From a virus: 41,138 nucleotides of DNA. Shown one piece after another: positions 1-41,138 of this stretch. The translations under genes were made by a program, and so were the position numbers. The notes under the pieces are model-generated. The model was given only the letters and a program-made list of their open reading frames with translations. It had not been told where the DNA came from and ran no database searches. Where the stretch lies: positions 1 through 41,138 of the IMG/VR virus record IMGVR_UViG_3300033149_001833; one strand, 5' to 3'. Every line of letters begins with the position of its first letter. Position 1 is the first letter of the stretch.

Positions 1-99
1 GACGTAGATACCCTGTTGGCTGGCAGGAGCTTGAGCTGAGGTAGGATTAGATAGTAGAATGGGGAGTGCTATCAAGCGTTTAGGCGGGTGTAGGCTCAG
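1..99. repeat. Terminal direct repeat, left copy
   Basis: Bases 1-99 are identical to 41040-41138. This is the usual sign of a circular molecule written out with overlapping ends, or of a terminally redundant assembly. The repeat lies inside the structured non-coding region that spans the junction, so it is not a natural gene boundary. Confidence 0.97.
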
Positions 100-164
100 G
101 CAAGGGACTGGGGTATGAAGTAAACGATTGGCTATCAGGCAGGAGTTGAACCTGCCCCAGTCCC
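1..164 (+). ncRNA. Candidate structured RNA, 3' part (continues from 40943)
   Basis: After joining the ends, about 260 nt upstream of the gene at 202 contain no credible gene but several long complementary segments. TGGCTGGCA (17-25) pairs with TGCCAGCCA (41014-41022); GCTTGA (29-34) pairs with TCAAGC (72-77); GGGACTGGGG (104-113) pairs perfectly with CCCCAGTCCC (155-164), enclosing a smaller GGCAGG/CCTGCC hairpin. The strand is assumed from the flanking genes, all of which run rightward. It could be a stand-alone phage RNA, an elaborate 5' leader of the downstream operon, or a DNA-level structure such as an origin. I do not recognise it as tRNA, tmRNA, RNase P or a known intron. Confidence 0.45.
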
Positions 165-201: not shown

Positions 202-447
202 ATGGGAAACGAGGAAAATCAAAAAGGACTATACCAGAAATATATAATCAGCAAAGCAAATGGTAAGCCCCTTGACCCAGACTTCTATGCCATAGTTTTG
301 CGGATAGATGGTGGCAAATATGTTGATGCCTGCCGTACTGGAGCTTTAGCCTTTGCAGCAGAGGTGAGATACCAAAACGAGACTCTGGCACACGATATAT
401 ACCAAAAGGTTTATGAACTCATCAGAGAGGAAGTTAGGAAAGGCTAA
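202..447 (+). CDS. Small conserved phage protein of unknown function
   Basis: 81 residues, starting at the ATG at 202 (a TTG lies three bases upstream) behind AAGGAAG. The protein is soluble and mixed alpha/beta: a short N-terminal segment with NGKPLDPDFYAIVLRID, then an alanine-rich stretch (ACRTGALAFAAEV) and a charged C-terminal helix. This pattern (residue type followed by 'VLRxDGG...ACRxALxxYA') is one I associate with small hypothetical proteins common in phage early regions; no function is known to me. It is the first gene after the structured junction region and is followed 11 bases later by another small gene, so it probably opens the replication operon's distal half. Confidence 0.8.
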   Translation: MGNEENQKGLYQKYIISKANGKPLDPDFYAIVLRIDGGKYVDACRTGALAFAAEVRYQNETLAHDIYQKVYELIREEVRKG

Positions 448-31860: not shown

Positions 31861-31889
31861 TTGACAAATAGTGTGCCTTGTGCTAGACT
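31861..31889 (+). promoter_or_regulatory. Rightward promoter upstream of hairpin-rich leader
   Basis: TTGACA (31861-31866) and TAGACT (31884-31889) with a 17-base spacer. TTATGTTAAG lies eight bases upstream of the -35 box. Transcription would begin near 31896, at the first leader hairpin. Confidence 0.65.
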
Positions 31890-31895
31890 GATAAT

Positions 31896-32050
31896 GTAGC
31901 AATGTAAGCTACAAGCTGCTGAAGTGGTAACGGCAGTAGCACATTAACAAAGCTGAATAGTCCTTCATAAAGACGGGTTCAGCTACGAATAGCAATTTAC
32001 TCTAGCTGCTAGGGCATAGGGGTAATACAGTAAAAAGGAGTGTTACTACT
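31896..32050 (+). ncRNA. Hairpin-rich 5' leader or small RNA
   Basis: Four stems follow each other: GTAGC/GCTAC (31896-31900/31908-31912), GCTGCTG/CAGTAGC (31915-31921/31934-31940, one GU), AGCTGAA/TTCAGCT (31951-31957/31978-31984) and TAGCA/TGCTA (31990-31994/32007-32011). The 155-nt leader precedes the gene at 32051. It could be an antitermination or riboswitch-like leader, or an independent RNA. No known class was recognised. Confidence 0.5.
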
Positions 32051-33365: not shown

Positions 33366-33375
33366 ACCACAAGGT

Positions 33376-33413
33376 AAGAGGTAGGATTAGTTGCCGTCCT
33401 ACCTCTTATTTTT
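33376..33413 (+). terminator. Intrinsic terminator
   Basis: AAGAGGTAGGA (33376-33386) and TCCTACCTCTT (33397-33407) give a perfect 11-bp stem with a 10-base loop, followed by ATTTTT. It ends the transcription unit of the coiled-coil gene. Confidence 0.92.
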
Positions 33414-33499
33414 ATGCCTAAAACCAGGTATGCTTTTGTGGTGGATAGGTGGACATTACCTGAACAAAGGTAGGGCAGGTTATGGACATGAGGTTGCTA

Positions 33500-33818: not shown

Positions 33819-34160
33819 GTGAACAACTCTACAGTCTATATCCTGCATTTTGACCGTCCATATTGGTACGGTAAGAATGGTGCAGGTTGCCAGCATTATG
33901 TGGGTTACACAAAGGACTTAGAGTCAAGGTTGGACAAGCATAGGGCTGGCAATGGCAGTAAGCTGTGTAGGTATGCTACCAATAAAGGCATACAATTCAG
34001 TTTGGTAAGAGTGGAGCATTATGCTAGCCAATCCGAAGCAAGGCGTAGAGAGGTGCAAATCAAAAAGCGTGGTGGAGGTGGCAAGCTATGCCCATTATGT
34101 GCCTATCCAGGATTGGACTTCAAGGATATTATAGCTATAGAGGCAGAGTATGAATGTTAG
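33819..34160 (+). CDS. GIY-YIG nuclease
   Basis: 113 residues from a GTG with GAGG upstream. VYILHF (residues 6-11) and HYVGYT (26-31) are the GIY and YIG strands; R37 in LESRLDKHRAG is the conserved catalytic arginine; SEARRREVQIKKR carries the catalytic glutamate (E78) and lysine-rich end. A CPLC pair near residue 91 may bind zinc. The domain fills the whole protein, with no DNA-binding extension, so it may be a repair-type or free-standing homing nuclease. Confidence 0.85.
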   Translation: MNNSTVYILHFDRPYWYGKNGAGCQHYVGYTKDLESRLDKHRAGNGSKLCRYATNKGIQFSLVRVEHYASQSEARRREVQIKKRGGGGKLCPLCAYPGLDFKDIIAIEAEYEC

Positions 34161-39807: not shown

Positions 39808-39984
39808 GTGAGCAAGAAGGCATTTACAGTAAGATTATCACCAGACCTTGTTAAGGCACTCAGAATACAGGCTATAAAGGAGGAACGCAAGGCTAATGAA
39901 GTAATTGAGGATGCTATCAATAGGTATTTAGCACAGGTCAATACAGTAACAAATACAGTAATAAAGGAGGAAAAAATTGGCTGA
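39808..39984 (+). CDS. Ribbon-helix-helix (CopG/Arc-type) transcription regulator
   Basis: 58 residues from a GTG seven bases after GAGG. The N terminus KKAFTVRLSPDLVKALRIQA gives the ribbon strand (TVRL) followed by S/P-capped helix 1, and NEVIEDAINRYLAQ the second helix, the standard RHH layout. RHH dimers bind short inverted or tandem sites, and two such sites lie in its own promoter. It is the best candidate for the protein that recognises the TTATGTAAAG family of sites in this genome. Function is inferred. Confidence 0.78.
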   Translation: MSKKAFTVRLSPDLVKALRIQAIKEERKANEVIEDAINRYLAQVNTVTNTVIKEEKIG

Positions 39985-40720
39985 TTTAACACCTGAGCAA
40001 GTGATAGAACAGTTAAGAACCAGAGGATTTGAGACCGGAGGATTTCGCAGTCCATTAAGGCACTTCAGAGGTAAACTGGACTCCATTACCGGCAGTATGG
40101 TTCAGAGAGGAGCTATGCCTCAGCCTCGGTTGGAGGTACTTTACAACTTCTCCGATGTAGAGGTTTTTGAGTCCACTGAGCCATATCCATTTCCAGTAGC
40201 CCAAATAAACATCATGCACTCCAACCGTGTCAAGAGTGCTATGGGTGTCCTTGGCGCCAGTATGGATAAAATCCTGAACGCTGGCCTGGATGAGAACGCA
40301 CCACAGGAGCAGGCTAAGAACCAAGATGCTCTTATTGGCAAGGTTCAAGAGTGGAAGGTAACACCTGGGCACATGATGTGGGATGGCAGTGTTGGTCAGG
40401 AAGTGCCAAGGGAGTGTTGGGAGGTTGTCTATGTAGAGGGTATAGGTGGAACTCCACATAGTGGAGTAGCTACCACACCTGCTACTGCCGGACAGCCGGA
40501 GCCGGCTGCACCAGCAGGGGTAACTCCGATCCAACAGGCTATTAACCTGCTGGATGGTAAAACCCAGCAACAGTGGAATAATACTGTTTTCCAGGATCCA
40601 TTGGTAAAGAGTGATGCGGAGCTAACCCAGTCCATAATTCAGGGTACATTCCTGCCACCTCTGGAGGCTGCTGGTACGGTTACCAAAGATGAGAATGGTG
40701 TGTACCATAAAGTAGGTTAA
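39977..40720 (+). CDS. Conserved-looking hypothetical protein, possible ssDNA-binding or replication accessory protein
   Basis: 247 residues from a TTG six bases after AAAGGAGG. N-terminal 160 residues are compact and strand-rich (QPRLEVLYNFSDVEVFESTE, FPVAQINIMHSNRVKSAMG). Then an Ala/Pro/Gly-rich linker and a small C-terminal helical domain (PIQQAINLLDGKTQQQWNNT). A folded N-terminal domain, linker and acidic tail recall ssDNA-binding proteins, but no OB-fold motif is certain. Overlaps the RHH gene by eight bases and precedes the replication genes across the junction. Confidence 0.65.
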   Translation: MADLTPEQVIEQLRTRGFETGGFRSPLRHFRGKLDSITGSMVQRGAMPQPRLEVLYNFSDVEVFESTEPYPFPVAQINIMHSNRVKSAMGVLGASMDKILNAGLDENAPQEQAKNQDALIGKVQEWKVTPGHMMWDGSVGQEVPRECWEVVYVEGIGGTPHSGVATTPATAGQPEPAAPAGVTPIQQAINLLDGKTQQQWNNTVFQDPLVKSDAELTQSIIQGTFLPPLEAAGTVTKDENGVYHKVG

Positions 40721-40723
40721 CAG

Positions 40724-40936
40724 ATGGACAGAACAATTAGAAGGTTGATTATAGCTATCCTGGCAATTGTACTTGTAGGAACTTTCACCATCATATTCCT
40801 CATTGGTACAGTTGCCCACGCCGCCCAATATTCCAGCGACTTTGCTGGAGTGTTAGGTATATTTGTGGATTGCTGGAAACAGACCATAGCTGGATTGATT
40901 GATTTGGCTAAACTGAGCTTGGGAGTAGTACCTTAA
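40724..40936 (+). CDS. Small two-TM membrane protein
   Basis: 70 residues. The N-terminal segment (LIIAILAIVLVGTFTIIFLIGTVAHA) is long and hydrophobic; a signal-like AHA-AQ end or a TM anchor are both possible. A second weakly hydrophobic amphipathic segment follows (FAGVLGIFVDCWKQTIAGLI). It could be a holin or anchor for the replication complex. The last gene before the structured junction region. Confidence 0.62.
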   Translation: MDRTIRRLIIAILAIVLVGTFTIIFLIGTVAHAAQYSSDFAGVLGIFVDCWKQTIAGLIDLAKLSLGVVP

Positions 40937-40942
40937 CATAGC

Positions 40943-41138
40943 TTGCTGGTGTCCTTAAAACTAGTTCGCCAGAAGGATTAAATGTCAAGGCGTGAAATGA
41001 CAGCCAGCAAGAATGCCAGCCACAGCCCGTGAAAGTCGGGACGTAGATACCCTGTTGGCTGGCAGGAGCTTGAGCTGAGGTAGGATTAGATAGTAGAATG
41101 GGGAGTGCTATCAAGCGTTTAGGCGGGTGTAGGCTCAG
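40943..41138 (+). ncRNA. Candidate structured RNA, 5' part (continues at 1)
   Basis: The segment folds into a multibranch unit: TTGCTGG (40943-40949) pairs with CCAGCAA (41004-41010) and encloses TCCTT/AAGGA (40952-40956/40973-40977) and TGTCA/TGACA (40983-40987/40998-41002). Next, TGCCAGCCA (41014-41022) pairs with TGGCTGGCA (41056-41064, equal to 17-25) around a CCCG/CGGG stem. No reading frame longer than a few codons with a ribosome site is present. Bases from 41040 on duplicate 1-99. Confidence 0.45.
41040..41138. repeat. Terminal direct repeat, right copy
   Basis: Exact copy of 1-99. Removing one copy gives a circle of 41,039 bp. Confidence 0.97.

Follow-up and report, generated by a model that had tools for sequence, protein, structure and literature searches.

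We lean towards reading the gene-free region that spans the ends of a circular viral record (IMG/VR record IMGVR_UViG_3300033149_001833; the window, meaning the whole 41,138-nt stretch analyzed here) as an array of tRNA-sized RNA domains, led by boxA, transcribed and untranslated, whose transcription NusB/S10 antitermination would sustain. According to this model, the region would template an untranslated RNA as part of a phage early operon. This RNA would consist of compact domains of tRNA size (M1 to M4), and boxA appears normally to precede them in this phage family. As happens at rRNA operons, the boxA of the emerging transcript would recruit host NusB and ribosomal protein S10 to RNA polymerase; the polymerase so equipped could then cross the untranslated array, escape termination by Rho and continue into the downstream genes. 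By sequence comparison with relatives, we established the modules and their order, the conservation of their helices with compensatory change, the exchange of modules, the match of the leader motif to the rRNA boxA of Dehalococcoidia genomes and its adjacency to the first module, and the presence of tRNA-type modules in the same slot; transcription of the array and NusB/S10 loading are what we infer.

The gap across the circle junction folds into four closed domains

A perfect 99-bp direct repeat at the record ends makes the record circular by assembly, with position 41138 continuing at position 100. Joined across this overlap, the stretch from the ORF stop at 40936 to the ATG at 202 comprises 202 + 102 = 304 nt without a gene, longer than the approximately 260 nt given in an earlier reading made from the sequence alone. 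MFE folding of the joined gap yielded four consecutive, independently closed domains over approximately 225 nt, each with a closing helix of 8–10 bp. The junction and its surroundings contain the following features:

39977..40720, plus strand: gene A, encoding 247 aa with no assigned function; it lies 5′ of the array in window-type phages
40724..40936, plus strand: small ORF (70 aa, N-terminal half hydrophobic) between gene A and the array
40932..40941, plus strand: boxA remnant CTTAACATAG before M1; the L003 equivalent is TTAACAATTGAATAG, and 6 nt are deleted in the window
40941..41012, plus strand: module M1, closing helix P1 40942-40949/41004-41011
40952-40956/40973-40977, plus strand: M1 stem P2, enclosing the loop AAAACUAG..CGCC (40957-40972)
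40983-40987/40998-41002, plus strand: M1 stem P3, preceded by the linker UUAAAUG
40967-40970 with 40989-40992, plus strand: proposed M1 loop-loop pairing of CGCC with GGCG (comparative proposal)
41014..41064, plus strand: module M2, closing helix TGCCAGCCA (41014-41022) / TGGCTGGCA (41056-41064), inner hairpin CCCG/CGGG
1..99, no strand: direct repeat of 41040-41138 at the record ends, marking the assembly overlap of a circular genome
29..101 (the same DNA as 41068-41138 plus 100-101), plus strand: module M3, closing helix 29-37/93-101
104..164, plus strand: module M4, closing helix GGGACTGGGG (104-113) / CCCCAGTCCC (155-164)
202..447, plus strand: first ORF behind the array, starting with the ATG at 202 and encoding about 81 aa
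765..1658, plus strand: gene E (297 aa, function unknown), the syntenic right-hand marker for finding relatives

The structured gap announced by the sequence-only reading is real: the 9-bp and 10-bp helices that it named close M2 and M4, respectively, and its nested three-stem unit corresponds to M1. The span that it gave, 40943-41138, lies in the right region and is incomplete, as the element runs on to about position 165. Three disjoint perfect Watson-Crick closing helices of at least 8 bp were present in the gap, compared with at most two in any of 5,000 shuffles, and the folding energy of −103.8 kcal/mol (z −2.3) was equaled in stability by none of 100 shuffles. In a z-score scan, 120-nt windows of the array taken singly were no outliers relative to the rest of the genome, and plain MFE folding did not pick the loop-loop arrangement of M1 P2 and P3. 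The energy by itself is moderately unusual; the persuasive support comes from comparison with relatives. By z-score, a strong intrinsic-terminator-like hairpin in an intergenic gap at 33373-33415 (AAGAGGTAGGATTAG..CCTACCTCTTATTTTT) ranks with the stablest parts of the window.

The suggestion of an unrecognised structured RNA also stood. Rfam searches at gathering cut-offs matched no family in the window or in 12 relatives, and permissive Rfam searches of both junction halves returned weak matches far under cut-off. ARAGORN found no match in the window; group I introns, RNase P, tmRNA, 6S RNA and riboswitches were matched by neither Rfam nor ARAGORN. The tRNA modules of L051 and L012 were the sole hits of these two programs in or around the arrays of relatives. 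BLASTN against 50,697 phage records and an exact 23-mer from the window gave no match, and a literature search with subscription journals mostly outside its coverage found no published description of the array. Readings as an integron attC site, transposon ends, an xrRNA, a preQ1-like element or a self-cleaving ribozyme were weighed, and we know of no tested support for any of them. The array belongs to no Rfam family, and its leader signal is of a known type.

Related viruses carry the same modules in a fixed order

Searching with the flanking proteins, those of gene A and gene E, we retrieved 25 IMG/VR loci, whose A–E gaps ranged from 88 to approximately 1,600 nt. Modules with the same closing helices occupied most of these gaps:

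M1 among relatives: closing helix GCUUGCUGG/CCAGCAAGC
M2 among relatives: closing helix UGCCAGCYA/..GCUGGCA
M3 among relatives: closing helix CUGAGCC/GGCUCAG
M4 among relatives: variable helix adjoining GGGGUG...AGCCCC

DNA patterns for the M1–M2 border, M1 and M2 added many further viral contigs, some without gene-A context; some of the M1 and M2 matches were chance matches in coding DNA. In a census of the collected loci, two or more of the four module types occurred together in 30 distinct arrays, a minimum given the strict patterns, which miss, for example, the window's own M3 and M4; the order was M1>M2>M3>M4 without exception. Dozens of related viruses carry the module chain. In two close relatives, the array site holds one hairpin of another kind and no recognisable modules (L005:6730-6817 and L013:6721-6834); the array is therefore dispensable and replaceable. 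The small ORF cargo just 3′ of the array also varies among relatives.

Several endonuclease-type sequences were also present. An HNH-type endonuclease ORF splits gene E at two different points, as homing-type insertions, in L007:3000-3660 and L027:700-1300, and gene E of L010 contains a shorter extra in-frame stretch. In the window, an ORF at 33819-34160 resembles a GIY-YIG endonuclease (VYILHF..YWYGKNG..HYVGYTKDLESRLDKH), judged by eye.

Helices covary and modules are exchanged between phages

The closing-helix sequences of M1 to M3 are nearly invariant, and the interiors that they enclose are hypervariable and swapped wholesale. Interiors differ even at high gene-A identity: gene A of the window is 91% identical to that of L003, and the two share M4 and not M1 to M3, while the window's M3 recurs nearly identically in the distant phage L028, where the gene-A homologue is only 30% identical, and its M2 is closest to the copy in L009. 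We therefore conclude that modules have been exchanged between phages. The L009 copy of M2 carries the inner hairpin CCUG/CAGG against CCCG/CGGG in the window, a compensatory change.

Compensatory changes among homologous contigs, a check proposed with the original reading, were clearest in the M4 closing helix. Across 26 arrays aligned by hand on the inner G-run, 141 of 156 cells in six variable columns were paired, compared with a mean of 74 and a maximum of 102 in 2,000 strand shuffles; the strands had been chosen as each array's closing helix, which makes the shuffle control somewhat flattering, and the margin is large. Five columns showed three or four Watson-Crick pair types, and G-U cells outnumbered A-C cells by 10 to 4. 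P2 of the window-type M1 likewise changed in a compensatory manner across three phages, reading UCCUU/AAGGA in the window, GCACU/AGUGC in L033 and CUGCU/AGCAG in L064, around a nearly constant loop, AAAACUAG-NN-CGCC, whose CGCC could kiss the GGCG of the P3 loop. A second type of M1 contains AAACUAUCGG and CCGAG in an H-type pseudoknot. Among 23 M1 sites selected for CCGA, 19 had the UCGG partner of the UCGG...CCGA pseudoknot, and the enclosing P2 of this type scored a sum of 179 (shuffled mean 118, sd 20, maximum 169). Scanning whole loci for a generic AAACUA pseudoknot gave too much noise to be usable.

On its minus strand, M4 (104-164) holds a perfect tRNA T-arm sequence, GCAGG-TTCAACT-CCTGC, as do L003 and L004. 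Its interpretation as part of a tRNA was dropped, the acceptor partner being absent.

A host-type boxA lies in front of most arrays

The leader consensus UUAACAAYURAAUAG lies directly 5′ of the first module in approximately 25 arrays. One of the array-bearing contigs, L051, carries tail genes and belongs to a Dehalococcoidia metagenome-assembled genome (MAG), and in 100 genomes of the class of this MAG the exact 15-mer occurred 15 times, compared with one occurrence of the reversed control. At least six of these 15 copies sit 40–145 nt before the 27F site or the 5′ part of a 16S gene, and one precedes a 23S gene. Since the same 15-mer precedes the rRNA genes of Dehalococcoidia genomes, we identify the leader motif as the host-type boxA antitermination signal. 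Among 13 genomes of the group, all encode Rho and 11 encode NusB. BoxA lets polymerase resist Rho over untranslated RNA at rRNA and CRISPR arrays, which sets precedents for a boxA before long noncoding RNA (PMC4807359, PMC7862264).

In 30 viral records, the motif was found 28 times with at most one mismatch, compared with twice for the reversed control. Half of 42 distinct phage boxA sites (at most one mismatch) had, within 10 nt, a closing helix whose strength exceeded the 95th percentile for random places, and the helices include differing ones, such as CUGGGCGGG/CCCGCCCAG and GAGCUUGUUGG/CCAACAGGUUC; only 3 of 14 host boxA copies were followed by a comparably strong closing helix. Some phage copies have no module behind them, and boxA also stood ahead of M2 (L081) or of a tRNA-like module. 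At the window's own array, no full boxA was found within three mismatches; the remnant there is 6 nt short, so boxA loading at this copy may be lost or weak.

The sequence-only reading had offered a phage regulatory RNA, a complex operon leader or an origin of replication. Because the arrays of relatives have boxA directly in front, the operon leader comes nearest of the three. The boxA of rRNA operons, which acts through NusB-S10 antitermination and is also found before CRISPR arrays, has the same motif and likewise stands directly before untranslated structured RNA; unlike it, the phage boxA leads a phage RNA of tRNA-sized modules, and the copy at the window's array is degenerate.

Two further settings of boxA were observed. 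In L102, a Dehalococcoidia-class genome, the same boxA directly precedes an apparent cobalamin riboswitch, judged by eye. In L109 and L110, boxA copies on the opposite strand point into the 16S 3′ end, with GGAAGGAAG behind each copy, a succession also seen in rRNA leaders.

Dehalococcoidia are the likely hosts, on the basis of the single MAG contig and the identity of boxA, which was searched within that class. One M1 pattern had no copy in 393 Dehalococcoidia-class genomes, giving no sign of integrated copies. Three GTDB pattern matches (Marinospirillum, Aeromonas and Pseudomonas) apparently lie in coding sequence and were taken as chance.

Early leaders and a possible action in cis

A second boxA-like site lies in the presumed early-operon leader of the window and, judged by sequence, is a better copy than the array remnant:

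31861..31889, plus strand: promoter-like site (TTGACA, 17 nt, TAGACT; consensus match only), presumed early-operon leader
31923..31931, plus strand: AGTGGTAAC, a candidate boxB-like element in the loop of a hairpin next to boxA; several relatives have it in their early leaders
31944..31960, plus strand: boxA-like TTAACAAAGCTGAATAG (boxA with 2 inserted nt) in the early leader

The leader hairpin loop AGUGGUAAC recurs beside boxA with small changes in L008, L063, L087, L131 and L134, and the conserved loop of the early-leader hairpins is AGUGGYAAC. The stretch 31861-31960 is possibly a nut-like early leader conserved in several relatives. A lambda nut site consists of boxA followed by a boxB hairpin that is bound by the phage N protein. 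The phage arrays resemble lambda nut sites in placing boxA in early operons with hairpins behind or flanking it; unlike them, they have no boxB consensus and no identified N protein, and their modules are large and pseudoknotted.

The array may thus be a nut- or put-like antitermination site acting in cis, a possibility to which we give rather less than an even chance. BoxA and the pseudoknotted M1, perhaps with further modules, would bind polymerase or a phage N-like protein and promote read-through of terminators downstream, and the hypervariable modules would reflect phage-specific partners. In keeping with this, boxA abuts M1 even where M1 stands alone (L115 and L116), and early leaders combine boxA with a hairpin bearing the conserved loop. 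In L115, the order is promoter, tRNA-like module, boxA, M1 and intrinsic terminator, with structural-type genes directly behind the terminator; this layout would suit a small RNA gene as well as a control point for antitermination in cis, for which put offers a comparison (PMC9378689). HK022 put, a single two-stem RNA of approximately 70 nt, acts alone without protein, so an RNA of this size can suffice by itself (PMC9378689). Put and the arrays are alike as structured phage early-operon RNAs with a potential cis effect on polymerase; unlike put, the arrays comprise up to five modules, mostly with boxA, and the window has four closed domains, the comparison being one of architecture. Several modules spanning up to approximately 600 nt far exceed what nut or put needs, boxA may precede M2 or a tRNA-like module instead of M1, and family searches identified no N-like protein, all of which weigh against action in cis.

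tRNA-like modules and a possible action in trans

The original reading noted no tRNA landmark, which is true of the window, where the modules have no anticodon arm, no T-loop consensus and no tRNA match in Rfam or ARAGORN; two relatives, in contrast, carry a tRNA-like module before M1. The module between boxA and M1 in L051 scored 39.5 bits against the Rfam tRNA model (RF00005; cut-off 29). Its acceptor, UUGCUGG/CCAGCAA, is the M1 closing helix, and its anticodon loop has 6 nt. The module in the same slot of L012 scored 28.1 bits, just below the cut-off, and has a 93-nt insertion and an encoded CCA. A tRNA-Leu-like D-arm, UGGCGGAA..AGACGC, is present in L018, L027, L041 and L115. ARAGORN accepts just one tRNA-like module, in which a normal anticodon is absent. 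Likeness to tRNA-like structures consists in these Rfam-scoring modules and in the closing helix that M1 shares with the acceptor of one of them. We infer from these sequences that M1 may be a tRNA-derived fold, with P1 as the acceptor, P2 as a D-arm-like stem and P3 as a T-arm-like stem, from which the anticodon arm has been lost.

We give the same, rather less than even, chance to a noncoding RNA acting in trans as the product of the array. Its modules would be tRNA-like decoys or scaffolds that counter, for example, tRNA-cleaving defence or another defence aimed at RNA, would diversify under selection and would be swapped between phages; boxA would merely secure transcription. Such a role is suggested by the tRNA modules within arrays, the tRNA-sized domains with their P1/D/T-like layout, the hypervariable interiors exchanged between distant phages and the promoter-to-terminator unit of L115, along with the precedent of boxA before noncoding RNAs (PMC7862264). 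Conversely, no target is known, most modules have no T-loop consensus, and anticodon arms are absent or odd, the single module accepted by ARAGORN included. The cis and trans readings are sub-models that overlap with the boxA-led array proposed at the outset, and their probabilities are not to be added to it.

GOLLD and ROOL, large ornate phage noncoding RNAs that are pseudoknotted and lie near or contain tRNAs (PMC12286853), are nearest in spirit to the arrays as ornate phage RNA near tRNAs. The arrays differ in being much smaller and in being built of modules, each domain closed on its own, and the Rfam models of both found no match in the window or 12 relatives at gathering cut-offs.

DNA-level and chance explanations

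A function at the level of DNA, either as a recombination hotspot or cassette site whose inverted repeats promote exchange of the enclosed DNA or as a replication origin, is improbable. The nearly invariant closing repeats of M1 to M3 around interiors replaced wholesale and the variable small ORF cargo just behind the array would suit it. As a point against the boxA-led array itself, the P1 sequences of M1 to M3 are conserved beyond the demands of a purely structural helix, and a recombination site or a protein-binding site would fit this equally. Against a DNA-level function, the repeats of M4 covary instead of keeping their sequence, G-U pairs outnumber A-C, the order is fixed, the orientation is sense, and boxA and tRNA modules are RNA signals. 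The origin proposed in the sequence-only reading found no support: the examined arrays lie on the sense strand of neighbouring genes and bear marks of RNA, namely boxA, tRNA domains and G-U pairs, with a promoter-to-terminator unit in one phage; no iterons were noticed in the 304 nt, and the array is absent or elsewhere in relatives, unlike an origin. Chance, or generic GC-rich hairpins of an intergenic gap, could be argued from a folding z-score of just −2.3 and the absence of outlier windows, and is already refuted by the comparative data, namely homologous modules in dozens of phages, conserved in sequence and order and with compensatory change.

Implications of a boxA-led module array

BoxA alone fails to explain up to five complex modules. 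With a chance close to that of either sub-model, the arrays may form a new class among phage noncoding RNAs. Its members would be hypervariable and recombining, with domains that derive from tRNA and have no anticodon; they would be made with the aid of host rRNA antitermination and act in trans, for example as decoys or scaffolds, during Dehalococcoidia-type infection. If the boxA-led reading is right, phages of barely cultured bacteria would borrow the host rRNA boxA for long, structured noncoding RNAs built from exchangeable tRNA-like modules. It would also add an RNA family absent from Rfam and show that phages can employ rRNA-type antitermination in a way distinct from that of lambda, and it would offer a direct test of noncoding-RNA diversification in phages. 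The boxA and module patterns could serve as markers linking unassigned viral contigs to Dehalococcoidia-type hosts.
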